Below are positions 17,990-50,167 of a stretch of DNA of 64,000 nt, piece by piece. Each line of letters begins with the position of its first letter. The stretch's first letter is position 1. This DNA is from Hexactinellida sp. DTS-2022 (taxonomy: Eukaryota > Porifera > Hexactinellida): NCBI GenBank assembly GCA_028753945.1, contig JAPNXP010000012.1, positions 5,354,501 to 5,418,500 of the forward strand, in the 5' to 3' direction. The notes beneath the pieces were generated by a model. That model had not been told where the DNA came from, made no database searches, and worked only from the letters and a program-made list of their open reading frames with translations. The position numbers were made by a program, and so were the translations under genes.

Positions 17990-20900
17990 CTATTGGAAAG
18001 TAATAACAAATCTTGGGAGATCATGCGCTGGGTCTTTCATAACAATTATGCTCGCGCTCTGCGTGTGGTGCTGGTTGGGTGTGCCCAGGAGCAACTCGTT
18101 AACGAGCATCCTCTTACCGCCTATAGGGTGTAATATCATTATGGCACTATCTAATGATATAGCTAGTGATTCGTGGACTTACTTACAGTCACACCGTTAA
18201 TTCGAACTCTCAAGGGAAGTTAAATTATCGAATTAACGGATGTTCAAATTAACGAGTTTTATATCGGCCAACACCTTGTCAAAAATATAAAAACCCGGCT
18301 TCGCAAAGGTGAAACTTTTATGATATAAAAATTGGCTTTTCCTGGCTGTACCTAAAATTAATTTTAGATTTTTTCATCATCACTACGAAGGTGTTAAACC
18401 ATTTCACAAAATATTGAAATGCCCTTATCCGATATAATCCCCTGATATAATGCCCTTATCCGCTATAATGCCCTTATCCGATATAAGGCGCTTATCCGCT
18501 ACATAATGCCTTATCCGCTATAATGCCCTTATCCGCTATAATGCCCTTATCCGATATAATGCCCTTATCCGATATAAGGCGCTTATCCGCTACATAATGC
18601 CTTATCCGATATAATCCCCCGATATAAGGCGCTTATCCGATATAATCCCCCGATATAAGGCGCTTATCCGCTACATAATGCCCTTATCCGCTATAATGCC
18701 CTTATCCGCTATAAGGCGCTTATCCGCTACATAATGCCTTATCCGCTATAATGCCCTTATCCGATATAATGCCCTTATCCGCTATAATGCCCTTATCCGA
18801 TATAATGCCCTTATCCGATATAAGGCGCTTATCCGCTACATAATGCCTTATCCGATATAATCCCCCGATATAAGGCGCTTATCCGATATAATCCCCCGAT
18901 ATAAGGCGCTTATCCGCTACATAATGCCCTTATCCGCTATAATGCCCTTATCCGCTATAATGCCCTTATCCGCTATAATGCCCTTATCCGATATAATGCC
19001 CTTATCCGATATAAGGCGCTTATCCGCTACATAATGCCTTATCCGATATAATCCCCCGATATAAGGCGCTTATCCGATATAATCCCCCGATATAAGGCGC
19101 TTATCCGCTACATAATGCCCTTATCCGATATAATCCCCCGATATAATGCGCTTATCCGATATAATCCCCCGATATAAGGCGCTTATCCGCTACATAATGC
19201 CCTTATCCGATATAATCCCCCGATATAAGGCGCTTATCCGCTACATAATGCCCTTATCCGATATAATCCCCCGATATAATGCGCTTATCCGCTATAATGC
19301 CCTTATCCGATATAAGGCGCTTATCCGATATAAGGCGCTTATCCGCTATAATGCCCTTATCCGCTATAATCCCCTTATCCGATATAATCCCCCGATATAA
19401 GGCGCTTATCCGCTATAATGCCCTTATCCGCTATAATCCCCTTATCCGCTATAATGCCCTTATCCGCTATAATCCCCTTATCCGATATAATCCCCCGATA
19501 TAAGGCGCTTATCCGATATAATCCCCCGATATAAGGCGCTTATCCGCTACATAATGCCCTTATCCGATATAATCCCCCGATATAATGCGCTTATCCGATA
19601 TAATCCCCCGATATAAGGCGCTTATCCGCTACATAATGCCCTTATCCGATATAATCCCCCGATATAAGGCGCTTATCCGCTACATAATGCCCTTATCCGA
19701 TATAATCCCCCGATATAATGCGCTTATCCGCTATAATGCCCTTATCCGATATAAGGCGCTTATCCGATATAAGGCGCTTATCCGCTATAATGCCCTTATC
19801 CGCTATAATCCCCTTATCCGATATAATCCCCCGATATAAGGCGCTTATCCGCTATAATGCCCTTATCCGCTATAATGCCCTTATCCGCTATAATCCCCTT
19901 ATCCGATATAATCCCCCGATATAAGGCGCTTATCCGCTATAATGCCCTTATCCGCTATAATCCCCTTATCCGCTATAATGCCCTTATCCGCTATAATCCC
20001 CTTATCCGATATAATCCCCCGATATAAGGCGCTTATCCGCTATAATGCCCTTATCCGCTATAATGCCCTTATCCGCTATAATGCCCTTATCCGATATAAT
20101 CCCCCGATATAAGGCGCTTATCCGCTATAATGCCCTTATCCGCTACATAATCCCCCGATATAAGGCGCTTATCCGCCATAATGCCTTATCCTACCTCTGC
20201 AGTATGAGAACGAGATGTCGGGAGAGGTGGCGAAGTACTCCCCGGGCCCGTGCGCCTGTCCACTCCTCAGAGACGGGTTATATCCGTTCTTACAGATCCC
20301 GTCGATATTAGCATCCGTCGTTCCGTGAAATGCCATTGCGGTCTTGCGGTTGCCTTTAGCGAGGCTTTTATACTTTTCCTTGTAAGCGTTGAAGAGAGCG
20401 CCGCCCGGGTGCGCGTGTGGGTTTTCCTTAATGTCTGTTATTCTCAGACTGGGGAAGGTGCCAAGCCATTTCTCCACCTCCTTCCTGGGCGTCAGAATAG
20501 CGGCTAAATACAACAGAATAGTAGTAATACAATAATATGGCATTTTGCATTATATAGGTTCTTTAATTAAATACCGTAAATATTAACTATTTTTACAATC
20601 AGCTACTTTTGTTGGCTGCCACGTAAGGAGAAGGTATAAATAGAAACATTTGAGCTGTTTAATTAACAGATAGACAGATATATTCTTGTAACTGAACTGA
20701 AACAATCGAACTTTCAATCGCAAGACCCGTCTCCCCATCCGTCCCTCCATCTCTCAGAAACGTCCGAACACGGAAACTCTGGTTTCCCGAGTCTCGCATT
20801 AACTTCGTTGTGCGCCCTACACACCCAGAGCCCCAGGGCCCGGGCGGAGGTCGCCACCGGCGGATTATCGGCCATCCATTCCCGCAGATACCCCGCGCAC

Positions 20901-23900
20901 TCCTCACAGGGGAACACGCGGGAGAATGTGTGGAGGAAGGACTCCATCTCTCTCTGTTGATGGGGGGTCGGGTCGCTGGGGTAGTAGGCCGCCATTGTGT
21001 GGAGGAAGTTCCAGGTAGATTGCCCCAGTTCTATGCGGTCAACTGGACATTCCTTTGGCCAATTTGGTTGCGGTCCTACGTCCTTACTAATAACAGCACT
21101 CAGACCACCAAAGCCTGCAGTAGAATTCTTTTTAGCCCAACTCTTGAAGTCAGTGCATGTCCTGCATGGCTTCTTATAGACGGGGTCTCCATTTCTGTCG
21201 GCACTGCTGTCGTATGCCAGGACCCCGCCGGACAAGTTAAGCAGGACTCCCCCTGCCGTGCCCAGCACTCTCAAGACCCGAGAGAGATGACTCATGCGAT
21301 CGGTCTCAAAGCTAGCTTGCTACCACATAATAGTGTAATTAATTAGCTATTATATTGTCATTACAGGAGCTATTAATGTGGCTATTGAACTAATTGAAGT
21401 CTAGTAAATGAAATTAATGCGATAGCTTATTATCACTTTGTAATTTGGAACAAAGTTCGTTAATTTAGCAACAATTTGATTAGCTGTTTACACAACATTT
21501 ATCTATGTTTATAGAATTCAAGGTAACACCAAATGGATCAGTATTCCACTCAGACAAATGCCTCGATTGTACTCATCAGCGATTTATTTGAACTCGCTTC
21601 TGTACTCGTCATCAGTCATCATTGTAGAATTAATTAAAACTAATCTCTAATAATACTAGATTCATATAGTCTAGAATAAGGTGAATGTGGGTGAGTAATA
21701 TGTATTCATTAAATCCTGCCCAGGGTGTACCGTTTCTTAGAAAGTTATACTTGCAAATCACAATTTTACTTTCTTGCTAAAACAGCTGATTGAACATTTG
21801 TCCAAATTTGCCAAACAAACACTGAAAAATTCGGTTCGGACATAGGTGGCACAACTAAAGCATAACAGTGAATTAGCCGCAAACCATCTGGATTTCACTA
21901 TAAGGTACAGAAAGTAAAATTCAGCCATCATTACATAGATGAGCATAATTGTCTGGTAGCTAATAGCTATGGTTACCGTTACACAAATGTTAATTAGTAA
22001 TGTGATTAGTGGCTATCTATATTTGTGCAATGTGCAATGTAGCATTAAAATCGAGAATAATTAGAACTGAAAGTGCCCATATCTACAGACTACAGTAGAA
22101 CTCGGTTAGTACCCCCTTCGGGAGAGAAGAATTAATACATGATATTATTATCCAATACTAACCGAGTTGACATATAAATTGACAAACTTTGTTTATGCAA
22201 GTTAGTACGTACTAAACCAGGTACAGTGGATGCCGGTTATAAGCACATCGTCGGGAACTGCACTTAATGTTCTTATAACCGACATAAATTATATAGGGTA
22301 TATGGCAACCGTTTTCCAACATAGTGTTCTTATATCCGATATGTTCTTATAACCGGTGTGCTTATATGCGGTATCTACCGTACATACTAACGGAGTTCTA
22401 CTGTTATGCATTACATATTCTATAAGTTATCGCATGCAGATTATAAGCTAATGAATATATCAAGACTCACCGTCTCTTCTAGGAGTGTCTTTCTCCGCGT
22501 GTCCCTTGCTGCAGTAGTCCTGTTGAGTTCCGTCTTTCTCGATCAGCTTAGGCATATTACAGCTGGGAAAGTCGCACTGCGCATTAGGGTCAATGGCAAC
22601 TGTGGTAAACATACATTAAATCAGAATAAAGTCATTAGAAATACAGTGAACTCTAGTTATAACGAAGTGCTTGGGACCTGTAAATTCCTTCGTTATATCC
22701 GGATATTCGTTATAAGCGGATAGTAATTAATGCATTTAGTGCTCTGGGGGAAAATATCTGACTTGGTTATAAGCGGATAATAACTAATGCATTTAGTGCT
22801 CTAGGGGAATCTCCGTTTGATTATATCCGACTTGGTTATAACGGGAGTTCGCTGTATGTACACTCACGTTTTGATCCCATGGCCTCGGCCTTCTTCCTGT
22901 GGGATTTGGAGCAGAAGGGATGCGTCACGCCAGCCTCAACGAACTTAGCTTTCCAGCAACCAGGGATTGCGCAGCGGTCCTCAGGCTTGTTGACATTCTC
23001 TGCAAACAAACAGCAACAGTTATACACACACAGTGGAAACCGCTTAATCGGGAGCGCGAGATGCTCCTTTTAAAGTATGATTTTCGGAAAATTTAATTTG
23101 GAGCGCGAAAATTTAGAATCTTCTCCTATACCGTAACATTAATTTGTGATTTAGGCGTATGAAAATTGCATCAGAGCAGGATTAGGAGCGTATTCACAAA
23201 TGGCTGTATAAACAATGAAATTAAATAACATGTAACAGTATATTTACATCGGTTAATCGGGATAACCGGATAACGGGACATATTACCTAGGCTCCACTGA
23301 TAGCTATTAGCTACAAGTACATACCTGTACTGACGCCTTGCGAGGCCCCCTGGGCTGAGTGGGACCTGGAGCAGAAGGGGTGCTCCTTCCCTTCATCTAG
23401 GAATCTGTTGACACAAGAATAATATTGCTATCTTATACTAGCAGAGGGAATAAAGATACTACACAAGATTAGTTGTATGGGACAGTTAATTAGTGCAGGC
23501 TTCATTCAGATATTCAATATGCACAAATTCAAATAAGGACAAGCATTTTAGAAAATAGTTTTTTTATTATCTTCAACAAAATATAAGGACAAGCATTTTA
23601 GAAAATATTAGTTTATTATCTTCAACAAAATATAACAAAATCTAAAACAGAATAAAATATTTTAAAAGCGATTAAGAATCACTTTGAATGTTTATGTTTA
23701 ATAGCTAGCTTTCCCTTTCCCTTCAGAATCTTTATCAGATCTTCAAGCATTCTTTTGAAATCTGTTCCAACAAAAGCCTTCTTGTATTCTCGTGTTTTAT
23801 TCACGACACTGTTCAGACACAATTGGAACTGCCCTGTTCTAATAACCTGTTTGTAGAACACCCAGCCTATAATGAATATGTCGTTTGTATTTTGTAGCAT

Positions 23901-26900
23901 GTCGCCTTTGCTGAATCGGGAATAAAGTTGGATTATCTGTGCCGAGAGAGATATGCCTATTTTACACAGTGAAACGAAGTCTTCACTGACTCTTATCTCA
24001 AAGTATTTGTCCGCAATCGACAGTACTCCTTGAGCGTAGCACAAACAAGTGTTTATCACTTCCTGTATGGGCCGGGATATCCCAGCTGGGTACTGTACGC
24101 GATTAATCCTCTGTCCCTGCGAAAAGCTGCTCAGAGGGAGAATCGAAATCGGATTAGAACTCTTGTCTCCCGAGAAGTATGCGACCGCACTGAGAATCAT
24201 GCTGCCCCAGGCCGCCACGTCTCCTAGGAACAACCCGTGTGTCTCATTGGAATGTGCCGCCCCCCGCCTGAATATGTGGTCTCCTGGCTGCAACTCGTGG
24301 GAACAACTGAACCTATATTCAAGCTACGGATCACACTACTGCATTCAAGCTAGGACAGCTAGTAGAAATCTCAAATTAGAACAGTTAATAAGAAAATATA
24401 TTCATAAGTTATTGTAAGATACAAATACAGTAAACTATTCATTATAATAGCTTATACAGTGTACTATCCCATATACTCTTGCAATAGACTATAGTATAGA
24501 GTAGTGTAATGGCCTTAGTTCGAGGAGAGGACGACGAGAGTGACACAGAGGAGAGCAAGAAGCCGCTGCGGCCGCACGAGAGAGAGGGCGCGAAGGGAAA
24601 GCTGGTGGCCGGAGAGGAGTCCGAGACGGACGACGAGGACGCGTACCACGACCCACAGGTCCCGCACACAGAGGCCAACATCAGAGTCAAGGGTTAGTCG
24701 GGGGAATACCGTATTTACTTATAAGGGGTGTTCAAAAGCGAAAAGTTTCCACAAATTATACGCACTTTTTGGCCATTTACAATACAAAAATGATGGTTTA
24801 TCACACATTGACGTGACGTATGAAAGAGGTCCATTTTGGAATAGAAAAAGGATGGTTTGTCACACATTGACGTAATAACGTTAGAACGAGGTATAATTTG
24901 TTACAACTATCTCCTCTAAATAGGCACAAATGCGCTGACGAGCTCGCTAGAGCGGTTGCGAGAGAGAGCCAAGCCCTCGGCGGGAGAGGGGAAGCTGCCC
25001 GAGACCCCGCAGCAGAAGCGGCTGGGAGAGGCGAACAGGAAACTGAGGAGGGACCTTACTAGCTCTGTCCTCTCGACCTACCAGAGAGCGATACACAAGG
25101 CAGACCAGGTCGGGGATCAGCTGGGAAAGTCGCAGCTGATAACAGCTATTTGCCTGGAGGATCTGAAGCACACAACTCTGTACATCGACAGACTGGCCGA
25201 CCTCCTCGCGGGCGAGCTGAACGAGCTCCCTCAGATGAGAACTATAGGCGCTAGCACGCTATGAGACTATGTATATGTATTTGTATTTGCAGGAACTGTT
25301 TGTTTGCATATTACAAGTTATGCTACTTCTATTCTATTACAGTAGAACCTCGTTAGTACGAACACGGTTAATACGAATTTCCGGTTTATACGAACACTAT
25401 TTCAGTCCCTTTCAAATTCTTTTCAATACAAATGATATTGGGTAATACGAATTCCGGATAAGACGAACGCATTTAACGGTCCCCTGGTGTTCCTACTAAC
25501 GAGGTTCTACTCTTTGCTAGCACTAGAATGGCTGAGGGAGGTGGCTACTGCGATACGCACTGCAGCAACTGCTTCAGCTCCCTCTGCAGAGACACGGTTT
25601 GTCCGTTGGTGGCTTGCTCCTGCGCGGCAAGGCTGCACGAGTGCAAACTGTCGGAGCACAAGCAACAGATCTGCCCCGACACAGAGGTCAGCTGTTCCCT
25701 ACAGAACATAGGGTGTCCGCTCCGAATGAAGCGGAGGGACCTGCTCACACACGTCTCCGTCTGTCCGGCTAATACGCTGGTGTGCCACAGACAGCGGGTC
25801 CGGTCCCACGAGCGGAGGAGTCCCCTTCTGAGGCGCCTGGACCCGAGGGGGTCCGACCCGGTACAGCTGTGCTGCTACCTACATGACCTGGCTCTTATGC
25901 GGAGGGTGGGCAGGAGCACAGCTGGCTGCGATTCTGAGCTGAGTAAGCACCCGCGGAGAGAGGAGCTGGAGTCCCTGCTTAGGGGGGCGGGCGGGTGCCG
26001 GTGCGGGGGGCACCAGACGGGGGCCAGACTGTACGACCTGGCCGTAGGGGACTCGGAAGTGGTGGTTACGTGCGAACAGATTATCCGTAGGGACGAATCG
26101 GAGCAGCACAGTGTGTCCCACCTGTGCCTGTCGCAGCACCTGAGGACAGTGGCCTGTCCCATGCGGGACTACGGGTGTCAGTACAAACCCGAGGGGGTGG
26201 AGTTTCCGGGGGCCACAGGGAAGTGTAGGTTCGATTCAGACGCGTGTGGGCTGGTGGTGGACTGGGTGGAATGCTCCTTTGAAGTGGACTACGATAGAAT
26301 CAGCTGTTTGCCGTATGCAGCGCTTAGCCTTGTAGTGGACAGTCTGGACAGTTTGTCTCTGCGGTGTCTGAGTCTGGTGAGTAGGTACATGCGGGAGATA
26401 TGCTACGAGCGGCTGTACACCAGGGGACTGGTGATGATGGAGTGGGAACGGGATTATAAGGGGGGGTGGCGCCTGGGGAGGAAAAGCTGGTGTTTTTCTA
26501 GAGTCACAAAGTTGCCTGCTTACCGTTTGAACGCTAAATGCTTCAGTGACGTATCTCAGCATCTGGAGAAGTGTGCGTATTATAAGAAGGAGCGAGTCGA
26601 CTACAGATCTCTGCCAGATAAAGTTAAGATAGCTGGGTTCGTGTGTGAGGACGAGACTTTAGATGTTGTATAGCGAGGCCGGATCTTGTACAGTTTAATA
26701 TGTACAGTATTTGTATTTGAGATTATTTGTTATTTTATTATTACAAAAAAAACTAATATTATATATTTTAGATTATTTATTTTTAATTTATTTTTTAAAT
26801 ATAATATATTTAACTCCTATTTTAACTGAATATAATTAAGGTAAGTCAGGTAGCACATTTAAACAAGCCCTCTGCTACACACGATTCCTTTAGATTCGTT

Positions 26901-28425
26901 TAAAGACTTTTAGAGGCTTTCAAAATGTACGTACACAGTTTTGTTCCCTCGGTTTTACAGAAGAATAATCTGACCAAGTATGGTTAATCTCTAGGATTAT
27001 ATCCCCTATTACATGGATACACTAGAGCAGTGGTTCTTAACCTTTTTTATGTCATTTCCCCTTTTGGCCTGTTCACTTTACCCGATTTCCCCCTTCATTT
27101 GTAGTATAATGAATAATGTAGCCTGGAAATTACAAATTATTAGCTTTTTGGCGATAACTGCTTCTCGGCCAATAGTGGATCATGTTAGGAGGTATTATTT
27201 TATTTTGGTTTTATTATTATTAATAATTTTTTCTAATTTGATTTCCCCCTTATATTCCCAAATTTCCCCCCAGGGGGAAATTTCCCCCAGGTTAAGAACT
27301 ACTGCACTAGAGTGTGTTTGGAATGACAGCAGGGTAACTAACCTCGGTTTCTTGCACCCCGGGAGAGCACACACCCCCTCAGACACCTCCCTCTGGGCCG
27401 GAGTCCCCGCGTTCGGGTCGGGAGCTACAATACAGAGTAGAGGAGTGCACTAGTGACGTTATTAACTCACGGATTAGTCCCATCTGCTTTCCTGCCTCCG
27501 CGTGCGTTCTGCCGCAGTAGTTCATGAAGGGCCACACGTGTCTGTTACAGCTCGGGAGCAGACAGTGCGTTAGCCCCTTCGTAACACTGTCTGTGGGAGC
27601 AGAGTTAATACAGACTCTCGTTAGTATACGGACAACAGGGACATTTGTTCGTACGGTATAACTCGGGTATAACGTACCTGGGTTAGTTAGTACTAAAGTT
27701 GTATAACGAAGTTTATGTAGCAGTATGTATTTCTATGTAGAGTAAACTCGGTTAGTACGTACCCCTTCGGGAATAGAATATAAGTTCTACTGTGTTATCT
27801 GGAGTCACTTGCATGCATTGTATAGACTAGGGGAATTAACCCTTGTATTTCGCCTTATCCGTGTTCCTACTAACGAACATAGACTAATACACACAACAGC
27901 TGTTATAACTCACTCCCTAGGGACTTCCTCCTCTCATGCTCCATGGCGTGGGTAATGGAGCAACAGGCTTGCAGCTGTCCGGTTAGCGGGTCTAAGAAGG
28001 GCGACTGCTCGCACTCCTGAATAGCGCACTTCGTTGGGTTGGGCATCATCTGGGGATATCCATATTATAACACCTACTTAGTATCGTGATATGTAGTTAC
28101 CTGTTGTTGTTGTTGTTGTTGTGGCATAAACTGATTAGCCATATTCATGCTAAACCCTGGGTCTAAGGATCCCAACGGAAATGCCGTATTTCCCATTTGT
28201 CCCATTGCATTATATGCCATATTTCCACCCATTTGTCCCATTGCATTATATGCCATATTTCCACCCATTTGTTCAACGGGCATATTTTGTCCCATCATAT
28301 TAATGGGTATGTTTTGTCCCATTTGATAGTTGAGAGGGGCAGCAGTAGCACCCATTGGTTCCGCTTGTCCGGTTGGTCCCATTTGTTGCAGCTGAATCTG
28401 TTGATACATTGTCTCTCCACTTGCA

Positions 28426-28494
<69 letters not shown>

Positions 28495-28976
28495 GGTTGT
28501 TGTTGTGGTTGTTGTGGTTGTGGTTGTTGTTGTTGTTGTGGTTGGTAAAGCTCGGGTACTCCTGGAGATTGCTGTGTGTAACTTTCTGCATGTGTTTGCG
28601 TGTTTACTTGTGTCTCTACAGATATAATAAATAAGTACCTATAACCGTGATATACCGTAGGTCACGCTTTAACAATGTGTTTATCCTCACCTATGGTCTC
28701 CGCGATAGCAGGTGTCGCTGGCTTAGGGGGCGCGTGTCGCTGTATGGAGCACTCGCAGTACTCACAAAACGCGAACTCCCCGTAGCTGCACTCGAACTTA
28801 TCGCACTCGCCGCACCCCCTGCACCCCCCCAGGACCCCGAAGGATTCGTGCTTGGTTGGCGCATGGCTGCACTCAGCGCAGCGAACCGAGCCGCCGTCCG
28901 AACTCGCTTTGAATTCAAAACAGTCGCAACCGTCCCCCCCACACTTGCCACGGAATGTCCCAAACTTGTCACGCAT
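17990..28976 (-). CDS. Multi-zinc-finger PARP-domain protein, ten exons, with nested genes
   Basis: Exons read from splice signals: 28976-28691, 28615-28101, 28049-27914, 27590-27471, 27424-27343, 23404-23325, 22999-22868, 22599-22471, 20503-20195 and 18120-17990. All are GT-AG, all phases agree, and the total is 1920 nt (639 aa). Residues 12-81 hold two Cys/His-rich modules. A poly-Gln and Met/Gly/Gln-rich linker follows. Five C-x4-C...C-x3-H fingers start at Cys275, 322, 371, 416 and 459; finger 3 is split by the intron that holds three other genes. The PARP catalytic domain covers about 495-639 ([24 protein letters not shown]). The triad reads His553, Tyr583, Ile621, the pattern of mono-ADP-ribosyltransferases. 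An alternative start at 20543 with a signal-like peptide is less likely because an acceptor lies inside it. Confidence 0.8.
18262..18412 (-). repeat. Copy of the ~110 bp 'GGTGTTGGCC' interspersed repeat
   Basis: It reads ggccaacaccttgtcaaaa, then aacccggcttcgcaaaggtg, the reverse orientation of the copy at 1035. It sits in the last intron of the PARP gene directly beside the minisatellite array, and might mark where the array began. Confidence 0.6.
18413..20190. repeat. 18-20 bp minisatellite array, ~1.8 kb, with a 439 bp higher-order repeat
   Basis: The array is made of variants of cttatccgctataatgcc (18 bp), cttatccgatataaggcg (18 bp) and cttatccgctacataatgcc (20 bp), with a shortened ccccgatataaggcg unit. 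There are roughly 95 units. Segments beginning at 19146 and 19585 are identical over at least 255 bp, giving a 439 bp higher-order period. The array lies wholly in the last intron (18121-20194) of the PARP gene. The long open frames through it (ALIRYN-type repeats) are by-products of an 18 bp unit. Confidence 0.95.
20714..21295 (-). CDS. GFER: FAD-linked sulfhydryl oxidase ALR/Erv1, nested in an intron
   Basis: Erv1/ALR reoxidises Mia40 in the mitochondrial intermembrane space using FAD. The 193-residue intronless protein starts [13 protein letters not shown] shuttle C-x-x-C lies at [13 protein letters not shown], the FAD-fold start at [17 protein letters not shown], the active-site pair at [13 protein letters not shown] and the structural helix at [19 protein letters not shown]. 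All family cysteines are present. The gene lies on the same strand as, and entirely inside, the intron at 20504-22470 of the PARP gene, so the two must be transcribed independently. Its promoter would be the AT-rich DNA above 21296. Confidence 0.93.
22093..22403. mobile_element. Pogo-like MITE with a second MITE inserted in it
   Basis: The outer element starts cagtagaactcggttagtac and ends ctaacggagttctactg, both next to TA. At 22224-22380 it is interrupted by a second element, cagtggatgccggttataag ... gcggtatctaccg, itself flanked by TA. A relative of the inner element lies at 59034-59176. The nested order dates the inner family as younger. The remaining DNA from 21296 to 22092 shows no gene I can support. 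Confidence 0.8.
22644..22854. mobile_element. Pogo-like MITE (TTCGTTATAACG family) making up most of a PARP intron
   Basis: The ends cagtgaactctagttataac and gttataacgggagttcgctg are inverted and adjoin TA. The intron at 22600-22867 is 268 nt and this element is 211 nt of it. The middle contains a duplicated ataatgcatttagtgctc unit. Related copies lie in the fold-back spacer near 11065 and at 31745-31891, 41348-41515 and 45903-46077. Confidence 0.8.
23040..23320. repeat. Mixed MITE DNA in the PARP intron 6: 'CCGCTTAATCGGG' and 'GGAGCGCGAAAATT' families
   Basis: It begins acagtggaaaccgcttaatc and ends atcgggataaccggataacg near a second cactgat end. Inside is a block with ggagcgcgagatgctccttt and aggagcgtattcacaaatgg, found again in reverse at about 58480-58650 and, more diverged, at 54500-54680. 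It has the look of one element inserted in another. Confidence 0.55.
23679..24323 (-). CDS. LRAT-domain-like protein lacking the usual catalytic cysteine; start unresolved
   Basis: The frame is open from 24323 to the stop at 23679, about 214 residues. It contains [13 protein letters not shown] and THGLFLGDV, the histidine segments of LRAT/HRASLS-type (NlpC/P60-like) domains. Later text, [17 protein letters not shown], aligns with the family NCEDFA..CKTG segment but has Val-Ser where Asn-Cys should be, so acyltransferase activity is doubtful. There is no in-frame ATG before the domain. An acceptor-like tag lies at 24326-24324, so a short upstream exon may be missing from my model. It lies in the 23405-27342 intron of the PARP gene and is head to head with BLOC1S3, with about 185 bp between them. 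Confidence 0.5.
   Translation of the reverse strand, partial: LEYRFSCSHELQPGDHIFRRGAAHSNETHGLFLGDVAAWGSMILSAVAYFSGDKSSNPISILPLSSFSQGQRINRVQYPAGISRPIQEVINTCLCYAQGVLSIADKYFEIRVSEDFVSLCKIGISLSAQIIQLYSRFSKGDMLQNTNDIFIIGWVFYKQVIRTGQFQLCLNSVVNKTREYKKAFVGTDFKRMLEDLIKILKGKGKLAIKHKHSK
24509..25264 (+). CDS. BLOC1S3: BLOC-1 subunit 3 homologue, two exons
   Basis: BLOC-1 subunit 3 helps make lysosome-related organelles. Exons are 24509-24692 and 24924-25264; the donor is GTTAGT, the junction phase 1, and the product 174 aa. The acidic N-terminal half contains [15 protein letters not shown], close to the VAGEAAETDSE text of the human protein. The coiled-coil half ([20 protein letters not shown], then [18 protein letters not shown]) matches the human helix and its DRLD-type end. 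The intron holds two copies of a gatggtttatcacacattgacgt-like repeat. It lies on the strand opposite to the PARP gene, inside its large intron. Confidence 0.78.
25341..25513. mobile_element. Pogo-like MITE (CTCGTTAGTACGAACAC family)
   Basis: The left end cagtagaacctcgttagtac and the right end gtactaacgaggttctactc-like sequence are inverted. The interior reads cctttcaaattcttttcaat. It lies just upstream of the FBXO30/40-like start codon and may overlap its 5' leader. Confidence 0.8.
25528..26673 (+). CDS. F-box protein with TRAF-type zinc finger (FBXO30/FBXO40-like)
   Basis: FBXO30 and FBXO40 are substrate receptors of SCF ubiquitin ligases. The 381-residue intronless protein starts [12 protein letters not shown]. 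Residues 8-85 are a Cys/His-rich TRAF-type finger ([20 protein letters not shown], then [19 protein letters not shown] and [11 protein letters not shown]). A second short Cys cluster, [18 protein letters not shown], precedes an F-box-like segment ([36 protein letters not shown]). After it comes [11 protein letters not shown], the conserved Trp-rich end. It is about half the length of vertebrate FBXO30, with the linker shortened. It is nested in the PARP gene on the opposite strand. Confidence 0.8.
   Translation: MAEGGGYCDTHCSNCFSSLCRDTVCPLVACSCAARLHECKLSEHKQQICPDTEVSCSLQNIGCPLRMKRRDLLTHVSVCPANTLVCHRQRVRSHERRSPLLRRLDPRGSDPVQLCCYLHDLALMRRVGRSTAGCDSELSKHPRREELESLLRGAGGCRCGGHQTGARLYDLAVGDSEVVVTCEQIIRRDESEQHSVSHLCLSQHLRTVACPMRDYGCQYKPEGVEFPGATGKCRFDSDACGLVVDWVECSFEVDYDRISCLPYAALSLVVDSLDSLSLRCLSLVSRYMREICYERLYTRGLVMMEWERDYKGGWRLGRKSWCFSRVTKLPAYRLNAKCFSDVSQHLEKCAYYKKERVDYRSLPDKVKIAGFVCEDETLDVV
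27028..27304. mobile_element. hAT-type MITE, 277 bp, 8 bp target duplication
   Basis: The left end cagtggttcttaacc and the right end ggttaagaactactg are inverted. CACTAGAG flanks both sides exactly (27020-27027 and 27305-27312). Eight-base target duplications and a CAGTGGTTCT end are standard for hAT elements. The interior has atttcccc / gggggaaat inverted blocks. It abuts the donor side of exon 5 of the PARP gene, 38 bp away. The DNA at 26674-27019 is AT-rich with no gene seen. Confidence 0.92.
28426..28545 (-). repeat. CAA/GTT trinucleotide run coding poly-Gln in PARP exon 2
   Basis: About 20 uninterrupted CAA codons are followed by CCA-interrupted Q-P blocks. A short second run lies at 28102-28124, just before the donor. 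Frames through it that read poly-Val or poly-Leu on the plus strand are artefacts. Confidence 0.9.
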
Positions 28977-41347: not shown

Positions 41348-42068
41348 GAATGGTTTCATAGTCAGTTATAACGAAGTGCTTGGGACCTGTAAATTCCTTC
41401 GTTATATCCGGATATTCATTATAAGCGGATAAGTGGATAATAATTAATGCATTTAGTGCTCTGGGGGAAATGTCCATTTCGTTATCCAACTTCGTTATAA
41501 CGGGAGTTCACTGTATATGGAATTAAGGGCTGCTCAAACGTTACGTAACTCAAATTCCAGGAAAATAGAGACCCCTCCCTATGTCACGTTTTGACATATC
41601 TGTAATACAGAAAGGATGTCTCACTTTGGGTGACCCCCCCCCCCCACCTCCCCCCCCCCCCTTGGAAAGCGTTTTTAATGGCCCCTTATTCATTTCTATA
41701 ACTATTCTTTCTCCTGGTGTACTTCAGAGTACATGAAATTCAGTCATAATATTACATGGTTGGGAGGATAAAATATGTTCTATACTTTTCAATATTTAAT
41801 AATAGAACCGCTTCCAGAAATGGTTTTATAACGGTGTTCTTATTACACGTACCCACTATAAAGCAAACTAATGTCAATTGACTCACTTTGTTAGTATACT
41901 GTGAAATAATAGTGCGTTATTGGAATTTGGCTATACGTATTCGATTCCCTTGTACAGTCGAAACCGGTTTTTCTAACTTATCGTTTTTTCCTAACGACCT
42001 ATTTATTCTAAATGTGTAAGAAATTCCAATTTTGTTTTAATTTAAATCGGTTTAATTAGTTAATATTT
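41348..42068 (+). repeat. Segment duplicated in direct orientation at 45903-46617
   Basis: About 720 bp is shared with the later segment at roughly 90% by eye. It includes a TTCGTTATAACG-type MITE (41348-41515), a ggaattaagggctgctcaaa element with a C-run, and the first part of a cagtcgaaaccggtttttct MITE (from 41956). It lies outside the left arm of the SVIP/NHL inverted repeat, while its copy lies inside the spacer. Confidence 0.8.
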
Positions 42069-42333
42069 ATAGGATTTTTCTCTATTTCCATGCAAATAAT
42101 TCTTGGAAAAACTGGTCTCAACTGTATTTTGCTAGGTTTAAAGCTAAACGTATTCGCTGTTAGAAATTTATGTGTGTTAGCTGCTATAGCTTTTATTGCT
42201 GCTAATAATTTAAATATGAACTAATTGAGTGAGTTGTTTATTATAAACTAAATACAAACAAATGAACAATGTAGATCATACAAAGAGGAATAATACAGTA
42301 ATAAGAACAATAGACTCATAACAGTAGCATGCA

Positions 42334-44439
42334 TCAGAGTCTCTGTATGCAGTTGTTCTCCTTCATGTCACAGTACGTTATGTAGCCTGTCTGCTCTATG
42401 AATATTCCTGTCGGTCTGGAGATCTGACACAGTTCTGTTCCCTCCCCGAGGATACTCTCTATGTACACACCTTTTGTATCAAACACCTTTATGGCGTTGT
42501 CCCAAAAGTCTGAGATGTAATATCTCACCTTCCCTGTGACTGCATTAGTGTAGATAGCAAAGTGGTACGCCTCTGTAATCTGGCTTTCTGTTATTATCGA
42601 ACAAATGAGTTCTCCTTCGAAGGAGAACATCTGGAGAGGAGATGGTGACCCCGTGAAGAGACAGATTATGACATCACTGGCAGCTTTCATGTCCTGCAAC
42701 CACGGATATCTGCTCGCTTTCTTGTGGCTGGTCCCGTAGCGCATAACCTGCAGAGGGTACTCTCTCTCTACGCTGTTGGTGTCCGTGTTAATCAGCAGCA
42801 GACTCGGTGCTACAGTCCCCACATAGAGATTATCGTCATTGCTTGCTGTGCAGCTTATCTGAGGGATAGCGATTGGAGTCTTGCGTTCCATGTCAACTAT
42901 TTCAGAACCTTTCCATGTCACTGTAAATGGTATTAAGAAATCTTTGAAGCTTGCATATAGGGATCCCTTGAAGTAGGTTAGTGACACAGGAGTATCGTAT
43001 TTGTCGTCATACCAAGAAGCACTGCATGCTAGATCACTTTTTCTGTAGAATGATACTCTGTGTCCGTATCCGTCTGCTACTATCACTGAATTATGAACTA
43101 CAACGACAGAAGCTGGTGTGACTAAATTGATTACCCAATCCCCTCCTCTATCAATTCCAGACGCCGTGGGTATGTTCCTCTCTTCCATTGGCGGAGCTGT
43201 TAGAATTGGAATATTACGAATGTCAATGGCTACCGAAGGAATATCGATTCTGTTGTCGAAATAGTGTCGTATAGCTCTAAGAACAATGTCGTATATTTTC
43301 TTCAGCAGTACATCATCTTGGTTCTTGTCAACAAGGTACTCTAGGCTCCGTGCGTCTCTGTACAGATCACTCAGTTCTGTGAAAGCGAAGTTTACTCTCT
43401 TCTCAATTTCCTCATAAGAACTCTTGAACCATTCTAGATGTCTTTCCATATCACTCGCGTTAGTATCTTCTAGCTTTTGAATCGCTAATGCAGTCTCTGT
43501 ATTTACCCTGTTTAGTCGTGTCTCGTATTCCTGACGGGATATCCCCCCGGGCAGTAGGTCCCTATCGGACAGGTTCAGAGGTCTCATGTCCTCATCTATT
43601 CCTGGATGCACGAAGAATATGAATTCCCCTTTTATCAGGTGTGTCAGTCCTTGTCTCATAGCATAAGAACACCAGGGCTCCGGTATGGGGTAGGTTCTTA
43701 ACTTTAGGATCTCAGCTTGTAGTTGCTTGGTCAGTGACTGGTACTTGTTGATAATATTATCGATTATTATTTGCGGAATAAAGTTATTATCTGGGTCTTC
43801 TTTAGAGATCTGAATCTTTCTTATTTTCTCCTTAGCAGTTTCCCTCCACATAATCATGGTAGGTAGCGTGTATAGCTCGGGCTCAGCTAGTGTGCTCTCG
43901 ATCAGGAATATGCTGTCTCTGTAGTGAGCTGGGAAATTGTTGTTGATGAAGAAATTCGTTATTTCTTGCTTTTGAGAATTGAACTTTTCTAGCAGACTTT
44001 GTTTTGTGGATTCACTGATATTTTTGTTAAGCTGCAACTTTTCAAACACCTGATTTGCTTTTGTTAGTTTTATTCCAATTTCTTGTGTGACTATAAATCC
44101 TATCCGTGAGCATATAATATCATTCATAGAGCGAGTAGCACTCACTATATCCCTGTACTGCTGTGTTATCATTAGATAGAGATCCTTTATAGTGGCACGT
44201 GTCTGCTCTGACAGTATAGCGGCCTTTTTGCTGTTCAATGTATTCATTTCCAATTCAAACCCATCGCACAACTCCTCGATACCTTCCAAACCAATCTCAT
44301 TAATGTCGATGGCTTTAATCTCTCTCAGCCTCTGTTCGTACTGCTCAGTCAGCTTCTCTGCTTTAGTTTTTAGTTTGGAACTTTGTTGTGTTGCCATTTG
44401 TTTGCTTTTCAATTTATTTTCTAATTTTATTTGTATCAT
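42334..44439 (-). CDS. Coiled-coil plus NHL-like beta-propeller protein, copy A
   Basis: A 701-residue intronless protein starts MIQIKLENKLKSKQMATQQ; Met15 is an alternative start. The N-terminal 400 residues are helical and Lys/Glu/Gln-rich, with coiled-coil stretches (KLKTKAEKLTEQYEQRLREI). Residues 445-701 form propeller strands, ending with VFDTKGVYIESILGEG, ISRPTGIFI and ENNCIQRL, the feel of NHL repeats. No RING or B-box finger is present, so this is the TRIM-NHL body without its ligase head. Function is unknown. Copy B at 47708 is about 95% identical, and both frames are intact, which suggests that both are under selection or the duplication is recent. Confidence 0.7.
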   Translation of the reverse strand: MIQIKLENKLKSKQMATQQSSKLKTKAEKLTEQYEQRLREIKAIDINEIGLEGIEELCDGFELEMNTLNSKKAAILSEQTRATIKDLYLMITQQYRDIVSATRSMNDIICSRIGFIVTQEIGIKLTKANQVFEKLQLNKNISESTKQSLLEKFNSQKQEITNFFINNNFPAHYRDSIFLIESTLAEPELYTLPTMIMWRETAKEKIRKIQISKEDPDNNFIPQIIIDNIINKYQSLTKQLQAEILKLRTYPIPEPWCSYAMRQGLTHLIKGEFIFFVHPGIDEDMRPLNLSDRDLLPGGISRQEYETRLNRVNTETALAIQKLEDTNASDMERHLEWFKSSYEEIEKRVNFAFTELSDLYRDARSLEYLVDKNQDDVLLKKIYDIVLRAIRHYFDNRIDIPSVAIDIRNIPILTAPPMEERNIPTASGIDRGGDWVINLVTPASVVVVHNSVIVADGYGHRVSFYRKSDLACSASWYDDKYDTPVSLTYFKGSLYASFKDFLIPFTVTWKGSEIVDMERKTPIAIPQISCTASNDDNLYVGTVAPSLLLINTDTNSVEREYPLQVMRYGTSHKKASRYPWLQDMKAASDVIICLFTGSPSPLQMFSFEGELICSIITESQITEAYHFAIYTNAVTGKVRYYISDFWDNAIKVFDTKGVYIESILGEGTELCQISRPTGIFIEQTGYITYCDMKENNCIQRL

Positions 44440-44569
44440 TTTATCTCAAGTATTTATAGGTTTACAACTAGATTAGTAAAAGTTAATTGGAATTACATAA
44501 TTCCAAAAATATTGTATAAATCGAAAATGAAAGATTCAACAGAATTATCTTTTCATTATCATTGTTCAT

Positions 44570-44735
44570 ATTGAAAGTGTATGTGCTATAAATTAATGTA
44601 TTAAGTAATTCGTTACTCAGATATAGAAAGTGTATTTGCAACATAACTTTCATAGAAAGTGTATTTAGGTTGTATACTTCATATAGAAAGTGTATTAGCC
44701 ACTAAATACTTCATATAGAAAGTGTTTATTTCTGA
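44570..44735. repeat. Tandem 'ATAGAAAGTGTATTT' motifs in the NHL/SVIP divergent promoter
   Basis: Five copies of (a)tagaaagtgtat, spaced 25-40 bp apart, lie in the 610 bp between the NHL and SVIP start codons. They are kept in the second arm at 47185-47340 and 47573-47580. Kept position in both copies suggests regulatory or simply repeat origin; I cannot tell which. Confidence 0.55.
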
Positions 44736-45049
44736 AACTAAAAAACAGTTATTATGAAACAGAATTATTATGTGATAATGGCACATAGATAATTAATTAA
44801 TTAATTAATTACCAACCAACCACTTAGCTAATTTTATGACTGTTTTCATTCTGAGATAATTAGGATTAACTATAGACAGTCGATGGAACCTTTGGTATAC
44901 TTTGATACAAGAGTTGTAAAATAAATTACTTTATCTGTCTGGAGAATATAAGTTCGTTTTAATTAAGCAGGTTTTTCGTTATATCCGAGTTCGTTATAAC
45001 TGGGGTGTACTACAATTGATTAGCTTTAGCCTAGGGTGCACCTAATCTA

Positions 45050-45274
45050 ATGGGGTGCATTAAATCCAAGTCTAGGCAGGGCGGGTCCCCAGACCCGGAC
45101 ACCCGAAGACAGCTGATGGCCGAGGCAGCTGACAGGCGGCTGCTAGCGATGGAGAGCAGAGGAATTAAAGACGTGGACAAACTGAAGAGGAAGGAAGAAA
45201 CGAGAAGGAAACTGGAAGAGAAACAGCTGACTTCTCCGGCACAACACACGCCACTGCAATGGACAGCTAACTGA
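45050..45274 (+). CDS. SVIP: Small VCP/p97-interacting protein, copy A
   Basis: SVIP inhibits ER-associated degradation by binding p97/VCP at membranes. The 74-residue protein starts MGCIKSKSRQGG. Gly2 fits N-myristoylation and Cys3 palmitoylation, the same start as Src-family kinase YES. Residues 18-36 (DTRRQLMAEAADRRLLAME) are the VCP-interacting motif with the A-x-x-R-R core. The middle SRGIKDVDKL and the end LQWTAN match human SVIP (SRGILDVQSV, LRWTVS). Length equals the human protein (77). It is head to head with NHL copy A. Copy B differs at two residues. Confidence 0.9.
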   Translation: MGCIKSKSRQGGSPDPDTRRQLMAEAADRRLLAMESRGIKDVDKLKRKEETRRKLEEKQLTSPAQHTPLQWTAN

Positions 45275-45379
45275 TTGTTTCATTAATTTAATAATAACTA
45301 ATTGGGTATCCTTGTTAATTCTGTTTATTATGCTTCAATGAGATCTTGACACTGTATATTTTATTATTTATCTATTCAA

Positions 45380-45535
45380 CCAAGTACGGTCAGGTTCTCT
45401 CATTATGAACATTCAGGGACAAAAATTGTGTTCATAATAGAGAGACTTCATAATAAGCGAACTCAACTTAATACAAACCCCATGTAATTTGTTAAATTGG
45501 GACGGATATTGTTCACGATAAGCAGACCTGACTGT
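45380..45535. mobile_element. Pogo-like MITE ('GGTCAGGTTCTCTCATTATGAAC' family)
   Basis: The left end tacggtcaggttctctcatt and the right end cgataagcagacctgactgta are inverted. A relative lies at 58676-58832 just upstream of the SOCS-box gene. It sits between the two arms, in single-copy spacer DNA. Confidence 0.65.
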
Positions 45536-45902
45536 AGTAATAATCTCATAACATCACTTGTAAGAACTAACTGCCACATAGTTATAACTTAGGACTTAGA
45601 AAATTCGGGATGTATTGAGCATGCTCATTGAATGCCAACAATGTAAGAAATGGTACATAAACCATGCGTGGAATCCCTGACACTAAGAAGCTAGCCTCTG
45701 TGTATAAATGTCATTCTTGACAAGCAATCAGTATACTATTTCAGTTCCCTTCAAAGCCTTTTCAAAACAAAGGATATTTTGATTAATACGAATTCCGGAT
45801 AAGGCATTTTGGCGGTCCCTTATCGGTGTTCGTACTAACAAGGTTCTACTGTGATACTCACTACATTACAGTATAGTTTAGTATACGTAACCTGAAGATT
45901 GA

Positions 45903-46617
45903 ATCGTTTCAACAGTCAGTTATAACAAAGTGCTTGAGACCTGTAAATTCTTTCGTTCTATCCGGATATTCGTTATAAGCAGATAATAATGAATGCATTT
46001 ATGCTCTGGGGGAAATGCCATTTCGTTATAAGGGAGTATTTCGTTATCCGACTTCGTTATAACGGGGGTTCACTGTATATGGAATTAAGGGCTGCTCAAA
46101 CGTTACGTAACGCAAATTCCAAGAAAAGAAAAATAGACACCCCTCCCTATGTCACGTTTTGACATGTCTGTAATACAGAAAGGATGTCTCACTTTGGGTG
46201 ACCCCTCCCCCCCCCTTGGAAGCGTTTTTAATGGCCCCTTATTCATTACTATAATTATTCTTTCTCCTGGTGAATTTCAGAGTTCATGAAATTCAGTTAT
46301 AAAATTACTACATGGTTGGGAGAGAATATGTTCCCCTATCTTTTCATTACAAATAATAGAACAGTTCCAGAAATGGTTTTATAACGGAGTTCTTATTACA
46401 CGTACTATAAAGCAAACTAATGTACAATTGACTCACTTTATTAGTATACTGTGAAATAATAGTGCGTTATTGGAATTTGGCTATACGTATTCGATTCCCT
46501 TGTACAGTCGAAACCGGTTTTTCTAACTTATCGTTTTTTTCCTAACGACCTATTTATTCTAAATGTGTAAGAAATTTCCAATTTTGTTTTATTTTCAATC
46601 GGTTTAATTAGTTAATA
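45903..46617 (+). repeat. Direct copy of 41348-42068, abutting the right inverted arm
   Basis: It runs parallel to the left segment and stops at 46617 inside the cagtcgaaaccggtttttct MITE, exactly where the inverted arm begins (ttagttaatattaaattaatg). The junction therefore marks a rearrangement breakpoint inside a MITE. A further MITE fragment of the CGTACTAACAAGG type lies before it at 45745-45852. Confidence 0.8.
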
Positions 46618-46634
46618 TTAAATTAATGAAACAA

Positions 46635-46859
46635 TCAGTTTGCTGTCCATTGCAGTGGCGTGTGTTGTGTTGGAGAAGTCAGCTGTTTCTCTTCCAGTTT
46701 CCTTCTCGTTTCTTCCTTCCTCTTCAGTTTGTCCACGTCTTTAATTCCTCTGCTCTCCATCGCTAGCAGCCGCCTGTCAGCTGCCTCGGCCATCAGCTGT
46801 GTCCGGGTGTCCGGGTCTGGGGACCCGCCCTGCCTAGACTTGGATTTGATGCACCCCAT
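46635..46859 (-). CDS. SVIP: Small VCP/p97-interacting protein, copy B
   Basis: A 74-residue protein identical to copy A except Arg-to-Thr at residue 20 (DTRTQL) and Ala-to-Thr at residue 65 (TSPTQH). The N-terminal acylation signal, the A-x-x-R-R motif (MAEAADRRLL) and the C-terminus are kept, so it should be functional. Arg20 lies at the edge of the p97-binding helix, so binding strength could differ slightly. It faces copy A tail to tail across 1.36 kb and is head to head with NHL copy B. Confidence 0.9.
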   Translation of the reverse strand: MGCIKSKSRQGGSPDPDTRTQLMAEAADRRLLAMESRGIKDVDKLKRKEETRRKLEEKQLTSPTQHTPLQWTAN

Positions 46860-47371
46860 TAGATTAGGTGCACCCTAGGCTAAAGCTAATCAATTATATT
46901 ACACCCCAGTTATAACGAACTCGGATATAACGAAAAACCTGCTTAATTAAAACGAACTTATATTCTCCAGACAGATAAAGTAATTTATTTTACTACTCTT
47001 GTATCAAAGTATACCAAAGGTTCCATCGACTGTCTATAGTTAATCCTAATTATCTCAGAATGAAAACAGTAATAAAATTAGCTAAGTGGTTGGTTGGTAA
47101 TTAATTAATTAATTAATTAATTATCTATGTGCCATTATCACATAATAATTATGTTTCATAATAACTGTTTTTTAGTTTCAGAAATAAACACTTTCTATAT
47201 GAAGTATTTAGTGGCTAATACACTTTCTATATGAAGTACACAACTAAATACACTTTCTATGAAAGTTATGTTGCAAATGCACTTTCTATATCTATGACTA
47301 ACGAATTACATAATACATTATAGCACATACACTTTCTATACTGAGTAACGAATTACATATACATTAATTTA

Positions 47372-47553
47372 GAGATATCTTATATGTAGACCGTCTAGAA
47401 ATAGACCAGGTTTTATTCCCTATGCATTAGTATTACCCATAAAAAGCAGGGCAAGTGGTCTACAGAATTTATAGACGGTCTACAAATTTTTGGCTTATTT
47501 GTATGGGCTTTTATAGACCGTCTATTTCTAGACGGTCTACATATAAGGATGCT
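47372..47553. mobile_element. MITE, 182 bp, 10 bp target duplication, present in one arm only
   Basis: The ends share cttatatgtagaccgtctag and aaatagac as inverted repeats. CATTAATTTA flanks both sides (47362-47371, 47554-47563), and the left arm of the duplication has a single uninterrupted site. The insertion is therefore younger than the duplication. A relative lies in UBA2 intron 1 (55132-55290). Confidence 0.93.
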
Positions 47554-47707
47554 CATTAATTTATAGCATATACACTTTCAATATGAAGCAATGGTAATGA
47601 AAAGATAATTTTGTTGAATCTTTCATTTTCTAAATATACTATATTTTAGGAATTATGTAATTCCAATTAACTAATCTAGTTGTAAACCTATAAATACTTG
47701 AGATAAA

Positions 47708-49813
47708 ATGATACAAATAAAATTTGATAAAAAACTCAAAAGCAAACAAATGGCAACACAACAAAGTTCCAAACTAAAAACTAAAGCAGATAAGCTGACT
47801 GAGCAGTACGAACAGAGGCTGAGAGAGATTAAAGCCATCGACATTAATGAGATTGGTTTGGAAGGTATCGAGGAGTTATGCGATGGGTTTGAATTGGAAA
47901 TGAATACATTGAACAGCAAAAAGGCCGCTATACTGTCAGAGCAGACACGTGCCACTATAAAGGATCTCTATCTAATGATAACACAGCAGTACAGGGATAT
48001 AGTGAGTGCTACTCGCTCTATGAATGATATTATATGCTCACGGATAGGATTTGGTGATACAGGAGAAATTGGAATAAAACTAACAAAAGTAATGCAGGTG
48101 TTTGAAAAGTTGCAGCTTAACAAAAATATCAGTGAATCCACAAAACAAAGTCTGCTAGAAAAGTTCAATTCTCAAAAGCAAGAAATAACGAATTTCTTCA
48201 TCAACAACAATTTCCCAGCTCACTACAAAGACAGCATATTCCTGATCGAGAGCACACTAGCTGAGCCCGAGCTATACACGCTACCTACCCTGATCATGTG
48301 GAGGGAAACTGCTAAGGAGAAAATAAGTAAGATTCAGATCTCTAAAGAAGACCCAGATAATAACTTTATTCCGCAAATAATATTCGATAATATTATCAAC
48401 AAGTACCAGTCACTGACCAAGCAACTGCAAGCTGAGATCCTAAAGTTAAGAACCTATCCCATACCGGAGCCCTGGTGTTCTTATGCTATGAGACAAGGAC
48501 TGACACACATGATAAAAGGGGAATTCATATTCTTCGTGCATCCCGGAATAGATGAGGACATGAAACCTCTGAACCTGTCCGATAGGGACCTACTGCCCGG
48601 GGGGATATCCCGTCAGGAATACGAGACACGACTAAACAGGGTAAATACAGAGACTGCATTAGCGATTCAAAAGCTAGAAGATACTAATGCGAGCGATATG
48701 GAAAGACATCTCAGATGGTTTAAGAGTTCTTATTTGAGAATTGAGTGGAGAGTAAACTTCGCTTTCACAGAACTGAGTGATCTGTATAGAGACGCACGGA
48801 GCCTCGAGTACCTTGTTGACAAGAACCAAGATGATGAGCTGCTGAAGGAAATATATGACATTGTTCTTAGAAGAATACGATACTATTTCGACAACAGAAT
48901 CGATATTCCTTCGGTAGCCATTGACACTCGTAATATTCCAATTCTAACAGCTCCGCCAATGGAAGAGAGGAACATACCCACGGCATCTGGCATTGATAGA
49001 GGAGGGGATTGGGTGATCAATTTAGTCACGCCAGCTTCTGTTGTTGTTGTTCATAATTCAGTGATAGTAGCAGACGGATACGGACACAGAGTATCATACT
49101 ACAGAAAAAGTGATCTAGCATGCAGTGCTTCTTGGTATGACGACAAATACGATACTCCTGTGTCACTAACCTATTTCAAGGGATCCCTATATGTAAGCTA
49201 CAAAGATTTCTTAATACCATTTACAGTGACATGGAAAGGTTATGAAATAGTTGACATGGAACGCAAGACTCCAATTGCTATCCCTCAGATAAGCTGCACA
49301 GCAAGCAATGACGATAATCTGTATGTGGGGACTGTAGCACCGAGTCTGCTGCTGATTAACACGGACACCAACAGCGTAGAGAGAGAGTACCCTCTGCAGG
49401 TTATGCGCTACGGGACCAGCCACAAGAAAGCGAGCAGATTTCCGTGGTTGCAGGACATGAAAGCTGCCAGGGATGCCATAATCTGTCTCTTCACGGGGTC
49501 TCCATCTCCTCTCCAGATGTTCTCCTTCGAAGGAGAACTCATTCAGTCCATAATAACAGAAATCCAGATTACAGAGGCGTACCACTTTGCTATCTACACT
49601 AATGCAGTCACAGGGAAGGTGAGATTCTACATCTCAGACTTTTGGGACAATGCCATAAAGGTGTTTGATACAAAAGGTGTGTACATAGAGAATATCCTCG
49701 GGGAGGGAACAGAACTGTGTCAGATCTCCAGACCGACAGGACTATTCATAGAGGACACAGGCTACATAACGTACTGTGACATGAAGGAGAACAACTGCAT
49801 ACAGAGACTCTGA
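47708..49813 (+). CDS. Coiled-coil plus NHL-like beta-propeller protein, copy B
   Basis: A 701-residue intronless protein starts MIQIKFDKKLKSKQMATQQ, equal in length to copy A and with no indels against it. Substitutions cluster lightly in the helical half (for example GFGDTGEIGIKLTKVMQ here, GFIVTQEIGIKLTKANQ in A) and near the end of the coiled coil (RWFKSSYLRIEWRV here, EWFKSSYEEIEKRV in A). The propeller half is nearly the same. The divergent region to SVIP copy B is 848 bp, enlarged by the MITE at 47372. Confidence 0.7.
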   Translation: MIQIKFDKKLKSKQMATQQSSKLKTKADKLTEQYEQRLREIKAIDINEIGLEGIEELCDGFELEMNTLNSKKAAILSEQTRATIKDLYLMITQQYRDIVSATRSMNDIICSRIGFGDTGEIGIKLTKVMQVFEKLQLNKNISESTKQSLLEKFNSQKQEITNFFINNNFPAHYKDSIFLIESTLAEPELYTLPTLIMWRETAKEKISKIQISKEDPDNNFIPQIIFDNIINKYQSLTKQLQAEILKLRTYPIPEPWCSYAMRQGLTHMIKGEFIFFVHPGIDEDMKPLNLSDRDLLPGGISRQEYETRLNRVNTETALAIQKLEDTNASDMERHLRWFKSSYLRIEWRVNFAFTELSDLYRDARSLEYLVDKNQDDELLKEIYDIVLRRIRYYFDNRIDIPSVAIDTRNIPILTAPPMEERNIPTASGIDRGGDWVINLVTPASVVVVHNSVIVADGYGHRVSYYRKSDLACSASWYDDKYDTPVSLTYFKGSLYVSYKDFLIPFTVTWKGYEIVDMERKTPIAIPQISCTASNDDNLYVGTVAPSLLLINTDTNSVEREYPLQVMRYGTSHKKASRFPWLQDMKAARDAIICLFTGSPSPLQMFSFEGELIQSIITEIQITEAYHFAIYTNAVTGKVRFYISDFWDNAIKVFDTKGVYIENILGEGTELCQISRPTGLFIEDTGYITYCDMKENNCIQRL

Positions 49814-50167
49814 TGCATGCTACTGTTATGAGTCTATTATTCTTATTACTGTATTATTCCCCTTGTATGCTCTACATTGTTCAGTTGTTTGTTTAGTTTG
49901 TAATAAACAACTCACTCAATTAGTTCATATTTACATTATTAGCAGCAATAAAAGCTATAGCAGCTAGCACACATAAATTTCTAACAGCGAATACGTTTAG
50001 CTTTAAACCTAGCAAATACAGTTGAGACCGCTTTTTCTAACGAATTACTTGCATGGAAATAAAGAAAAATCTCATAGTTAGATTAAACCGATTGAAAATA
50101 AACAAAATTGGAATTTCTTACATATTTAGAATAAATAGGTCGTTAGAAAAAAACGATTAGTTAGAAT

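Follow-up and report, generated by a model that had tools for sequence, protein, structure and literature searches.

Among the closest known systems are PARP12, PARP13 and PARP7, in which fingers lie N-terminal to a PARP domain that lacks the catalytic glutamate. (PARP13/ZC3HAV1 is catalytically dead.) Here we describe a gene of similar layout from the sponge Hexactinellida sp. DTS-2022. It was found in a stretch of 64,000 nucleotides (nt) of contig JAPNXP010000012.1 (assembly GCA_028753945.1, positions 5,354,501 to 5,418,500), which we call the window and whose numbering we use throughout. The gene is read from the minus strand and runs from 28976 down to 17990. It differs from the PARP12/PARP13/PARP7 group in its finger type (C-x4-C...C-x3-H) and its shorter catalytic domain, and the protein has no Pfam match to CCCH or WWE. 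Our reading, to which we give a probability of roughly 0.62, is that a single gene codes for a protein with five finger repeats that is probably a mono-ADP-ribosyltransferase of the PARP superfamily. The gene structure, the finger repeats and the homology to PARPs are directly observed.

The gene is not a one-off, because its catalytic profile matches 245 database proteins at E<=0.001, and several of these have fingers. (The counts below are for the 120 listed relatives of these 245.) Oopsacas minuta LOD99_12841 (P0004) shares the N-terminal module, fingers 1 and 2 and the first half of finger 3 (83% over the matched part), and LOD99_10635 from the same species (P0003) shares its catalytic domain (69% over the matched part). 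Unlike our gene, these are two predictions, annotated as "hypothetical protein" (one also as "Sulfhydryl oxidase"), with no joined model among the matches. P0002 (535 amino acids (aa), from a public assembly whose source tag, lgn, we take to mean Logan) has the same finger order, module and PARP domain, but with five regular fingers and one irregular one, a single N-terminal module and no poly-Gln. Geodia barretti GBAR_LOCUS11343 (P0131) has the same finger order but ends before the PARP domain. Halichondria panicea P0005, which was deposited as "E3 ubiquitin-protein ligase NEDD4-like isoform X2", has half a finger and a catalytic domain of the same subfamily, but WW domains replace the finger array. 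Finally, P0010 from Ectocarpus sp. and the unnamed P0009 also carry C-x4-C...C-x3-H fingers N-terminal to a PARP domain. Theirs is longer and retains the glutamate, so they represent another PARP subfamily.

A preliminary description of this locus knew of no named PARP in animals that has this architecture. This holds for the names ("hypothetical protein" in Oopsacas and Geodia, "NEDD4-like" in Halichondria), but relatives do exist. The architecture is absent from the accessible portions of PARP surveys, and from the titles and opening lines of abstracts returned by literature searches on it, whose coverage excludes most subscription papers. We see the gene as a variant, so far little described, of a known enzyme family, with relatives deposited without a fitting name, and not as a new kind of system.

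Structure of the gene

Rebuilt from the DNA, the gene has ten exons:

28691..28976, minus strand: exon 1, with initiator Met and a pair of Cys/His modules (similarity to FAM221 under the cut-off); identities of 64/84 to Oopsacas P0004 and 23/40 to P0002
28101..28615, minus strand: exon 2, poly-Gln and Met/Gly/Asn-rich linker, with a TGT tandem repeat at 28426-28544
27914..28049, minus strand: exon 3, finger 1; 33/41 identical to P0004
27471..27590, minus strand: exon 4, finger 2; 33/40 identical to P0004, 25/35 to P0002
27343..27424, minus strand: exon 5, first half of finger 3 (C-x4-C); 25/27 identical to Oopsacas P0004
23325..23404, minus strand: exon 6, second half of finger 3 (C-x3-H)
22868..22999, minus strand: exon 7, finger 4; 15/39 to P0002
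22471..22599, minus strand: exon 8, finger 5; 20/36 to P0002
20195..20503, minus strand: exon 9, N-terminal two thirds of the PARP catalytic domain (FHGTT, GPGEYFA); 78/103 to Oopsacas P0003, 57/102 to P0002
17990..18120, minus strand: exon 10, C-terminal third of the PARP catalytic domain and stop codon; 37/43 to P0003, 30/43 to P0002

All nine introns are GT-AG, with the phase chain 1,0,1,1,2,1,1,1,1. The spliced coding sequence is 1,920 nt (639 codons and a stop), and its other five frames contain 10 to 33 stops. Exons, phases and the span 17990..28976 thus reproduce the preliminary model to the codon. An acceptor for exon 10 at 18177 would give 658 aa, but we rejected it in favor of the acceptor at 18120 because the 19 extra residues are absent from the aligned relatives. 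(The 658-aa version, with these spurious residues, was the query for the Pfam scan and for the relatives search with the whole protein.)

Do the fingers and the PARP domain belong to one gene?

We have several pieces of evidence that they do. First, the exons match relatives in order and in one frame. We compared each exon's score with the scores of 30 shuffles of that same exon. Against P0002, exons 1, 3, 4, 7, 8, 9 and 10 all scored well above the shuffles and were collinear in one frame: the exon 1 module is at residues 1-40, followed by the equivalents of exons 3, 4, 7 and 8 and then of exons 9 and 10. Exon 6 also exceeded its shuffles (61 vs. 33), but it matched the same finger as exon 7, and exon 5 showed a slight excess (48 vs. 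39) at another finger. Exon 2, which is low-complexity sequence, scored below its shuffles against P0002 (29 vs. 43) and did not exceed them in any of the seven relatives compared (115 vs. 125 for Oopsacas). P0001 is collinear in one frame from finger 1 onward, and P0132 from finger 2 onward.

Second, a whole finger lies immediately upstream of the catalytic domain in 7 of the 120 listed relatives, and a finger or partial finger in 10. Among these ten, the frame runs straight on in four and reads through an apparent short unspliced intron at the site of intron 8 in six.

Third, when we searched the sponge's own genome (112 Mb, 18 contigs) with the protein, all 11 matches at E<=0.01 were on this locus. 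(Only the top candidates are scored in the first step of this search, which can therefore overlook weaker relatives.) The rebuilt coding sequence, the matches at the locus and the one-frame order in relatives argue for the single gene that had been proposed from the splice phases.

Several observations weigh against this reading. By the pattern used, 110 of the 120 listed catalytic relatives have no finger. The two halves of the Oopsacas protein (P0004 and P0003) were predicted separately, on contigs of 1,096,098 and 50,933 bases, and P0003 joins the catalytic exons to an ALR domain, with an NHL repeat at its start. And finger 3 is complete in no relative examined. The Oopsacas split could reflect assembly error, prediction error or biology.

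One way to account for the first two points is that there are two genes: a finger-only protein from exons 1-8, and a short PARP gene that begins at a Met near 20543. Indeed, the frame of exon 9 stays open upstream to a Met, and both Geodia P0131 and Oopsacas P0004 are finger-only predictions. But P0002, P0001 and P0132 hold fingers and PARP domain in one frame, the last residues of P0131 resemble a splice donor at the point where exon 8 meets exon 9, and the ten relatives with finger sequence just upstream of the domain also speak against a split. We consider two genes very improbable.

P0003 raises another alternative, namely that some or all transcripts splice the catalytic exons to an ALR gene that is nested in intron 8, which would give an ALR-PARP fusion like LOD99_10635. 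In P0003, Erv1/ALR is indeed linked to the PARP exon, and the acceptor used is the same. However, its NHL repeat suggests that P0003 may be a merged gene prediction. Also, the ALR open reading frame (ORF) in the window continues to its own stop and, as we read it, has no GT at the equivalent point, and we saw no second such case among the protein sequences inspected. Such a fusion seems very improbable as well.

Within the single-gene reading, the join of exons 5 and 6 is the least independently supported step, because no relative has finger 3 whole. This join spans a 3,938-nt intron, is the sole phase-2 junction, and completes finger 3, as the preliminary description had proposed. On the minus strand of intron 5, the only other C-x4-C is not finger-like, and none of the four C-x3-H strings is in a finger-like context (judged by eye). 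We predict the join from its phase, the completion of the motif and the absence of another finger-like first half in intron 5. Directly after exon 5, Oopsacas P0004 departs from the family sequence and ends in unrelated residues.

The catalytic domain

We then examined the PARP domain. It passes the PF00644 cut-off (26.7 bits), with 33.3 bits for exon 9 alone and 36.4 bits for the 658-aa version, and so do the domains of P0001 (33.9 bits), P0002 (34.5), P0003 (28.2) and P0005 (34.1). A structure model also predicts a PARP fold. (The model used P0132 and 86 rows, or 87 of 132 proteins, and the fold comparison rests mainly on model residues 153-294. P0131 was left out of the alignment because it is out of register, and P0003, P0005, P0006 and P0008 because of their unrelated N-terminal parts.) The fold had been called complete, but the domain is compact, at about 147 aa, and the Pfam alignment of the 658-aa version covers model positions 37-123 of 199. 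By profile and fold, the nearest proteins are PARP10, 12, 13, 14 and 15, with the tankyrases close behind.

The histidine and tyrosine of the catalytic triad are present: FHG and GEYF align with the same motifs in the PARP1-like and tankyrase-like proteins of this genome. At the position of the catalytic glutamate, the alignment has isoleucine, so the triad is H-Y-I instead of H-Y-E. This position is never glutamate in the 119 relatives that could be parsed of the 120 listed. We propose that the enzyme is probably a mono-ADP-ribosyltransferase (H-Y-I) of the PARP superfamily, which is a better term than the "distinct ADP-ribosylation factor" suggested before.

Could the domain instead be catalytically dead and act as a binder or scaffold, like PARP13/ZC3HAV1? 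The missing glutamate and the shortened domain would fit, as would the profile scores against solved chains, where PARP13 was best and PARP12 second. But FHG is found in 119/120 listed relatives and GEYF in 118/120, and the flanking catalytic motifs are strongly conserved, so we think that a dead domain is unlikely. A caveat for the predicted activity is that a position that we take to be the nicotinamide site is serine in our protein but proline in many relatives. Activity may therefore vary among relatives.

The same genome has other PARP domains. A query with a relative's last finger and catalytic domain had only one other match, at C6:5257575-5257901 (L021), with 38% identity at C6:5257656. 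This PARP domain is in a 501-aa open frame whose start is presumably RWD-like. Another PARP-containing frame, of 207 aa, gave nine equal-score matches in a run (C6:2100295-2147601) and three more on C3, C4 and C12. It reads identically in the four copies that we translated (two from C6, one from C3 and one from C12), and looks recently amplified.

The fingers and the N-terminal modules

The five C-x4-C...C-x3-H fingers that had been described are present. In an alignment of 21 fingers from this gene and its relatives, the columns that never vary are three cysteines and one histidine. Each of fingers 2-5 is a unit with a phase-1 intron on either side.

Profile searches had been suggested for both parts of the protein. 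While the catalytic domain passes its Pfam cut-off, the fingers match no curated model above cut-off. For the finger region, zf-FCS (MYM-type) reached 15 bits (cut-off 22.4, E 0.023). Single fingers gave nothing convincing in Pfam: zf-CGNR matched two of the 21 (best E 0.027), EsV-1-7, zf-FCS, NF-X1 and three further families matched one finger each (E 0.057 to 0.13), and RNA_ligase had E 0.16. The EsV-1-7 repeat (E 0.057 for its one finger) was not listed for the finger region and had no match in the genome at E<=1. The N-terminal 86 aa reached 13.3 bits for FAM221 (cut-off 25, E 0.065). These scores may reflect distant kinship of the fingers to zf-FCS or EsV-1-7, or of the N-terminal module to FAM221. 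NCBIfam had no match for P0002, P0131, P0010 or a 214-aa orphan ORF in intron 5. A PDB search with the finger profile gave seven matches at E values of 10 or below, the top one a ten-residue overlap of LPGC type with engineered HIV-1 protease dimers, which we take to be chance.

Separately, the N-terminal Cys/His module as a query matched C17 weakly at three places (E 0.01 to 0.03). At C17:3800956-3802357 (L023, L024), three copies of the module lie in frames of one gene or of neighboring genes.

Genes within the introns and other features of the window

Introns 5 and 8 contain other genes, which the preliminary description did not mention:

23405..27342, minus strand: intron 5 (3,938 nt), host of other genes
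24500..25261, plus strand: BLOC1S3-like gene of two ORFs, in intron 5; PF15753, 32.3 and 36.2 bits (cut-off 27)
25507..26670, plus strand: gene with F-box_4 and TRAF-type fingers, in intron 5; PF15966, 76 bits, and PF15965, 57.3 bits
23682..24323, minus strand: orphan ORF of 214 aa, in intron 5; no family match
20717..21319, minus strand (the host's strand): Erv1/ALR-like gene, in intron 8; PF04777, 120.7 bits
18418..20191, strandless: 18-bp tandem array of about 104 copies, which takes up most of intron 9

The F-box/TRAF-finger gene is presumably FBXO30/40-like. Shorter stretches that resemble the 18-bp array occur elsewhere in the window, for example at 22689 and 59044.

According to the portions of PMC10282587 available, the glass sponge Aphrocallistes vastus has 2,432 nested genes (12.4% of all). 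The same table has 3,358 for Amphimedon but only 83 for Oopsacas, which is a point against our reading; the source ties low counts to the annotation method. It also calls about 10% exonic bases normal for animals. Identities to Oopsacas in single exons (25/27, 33/40 and 37/43) fit a glass sponge as the likely origin of the window. Its GC content is 44.6%, vs. 36% for Oopsacas in the part of PMC10280926 available.

Farther along, 41971-50166 is a head-to-head inverted duplication with arms at 42283-44480 and 47667-49864 (2,198 nt, 96% complementary). Each arm has a 703-aa ORF with no Pfam match, and additional matching arms are present.

Proposed mechanism

In our proposal, each C-x4-C/C-x3-H repeat would bind one zinc ion in a treble-clef-like shape. 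The fingers and the two N-terminal Cys/His modules would hold a target, which could be a protein or a nucleic acid. The compact catalytic domain would bind NAD+ and transfer single ADP-ribose units, and not chains, because isoleucine replaces the catalytic glutamate. The number of fingers would vary by duplication of units, which would keep the frame because phase-1 introns bound each of fingers 2-5. Introns 5 and 8 would be long because other genes lie inside them, and these nested genes would be removed along with the intron.

Implications

The fingers are fused in multiples to two PARP subfamilies, the compact H-Y-I one of sponges and the longer H-Y-E one of Ectocarpus P0010 and of P0009. 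This hints at a link between the finger and ADP-ribosylation as such, but two cases are too few for certainty. Tentatively, the finger could be an undescribed zinc module tied to ADP-ribosylation, with a possible role in recruiting substrates or in reading ADP-ribose. Sponges would then have their own animal family of mono-ADP-ribosyltransferases with a finger that vertebrates lack. We think that this reading is possible but doubtful.

If our reading is correct, automatic annotation would split or misname such genes because their exons are small, no curated finger model scores above its cut-off, and other genes lie within their introns. A finger-guided family of mono-ADP-ribosyltransferases would be added to the animal PARP repertoire. 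And this finger, which occurs with two PARP subfamilies, could be tested as a possible new module by which ADP-ribosylation is targeted or read.
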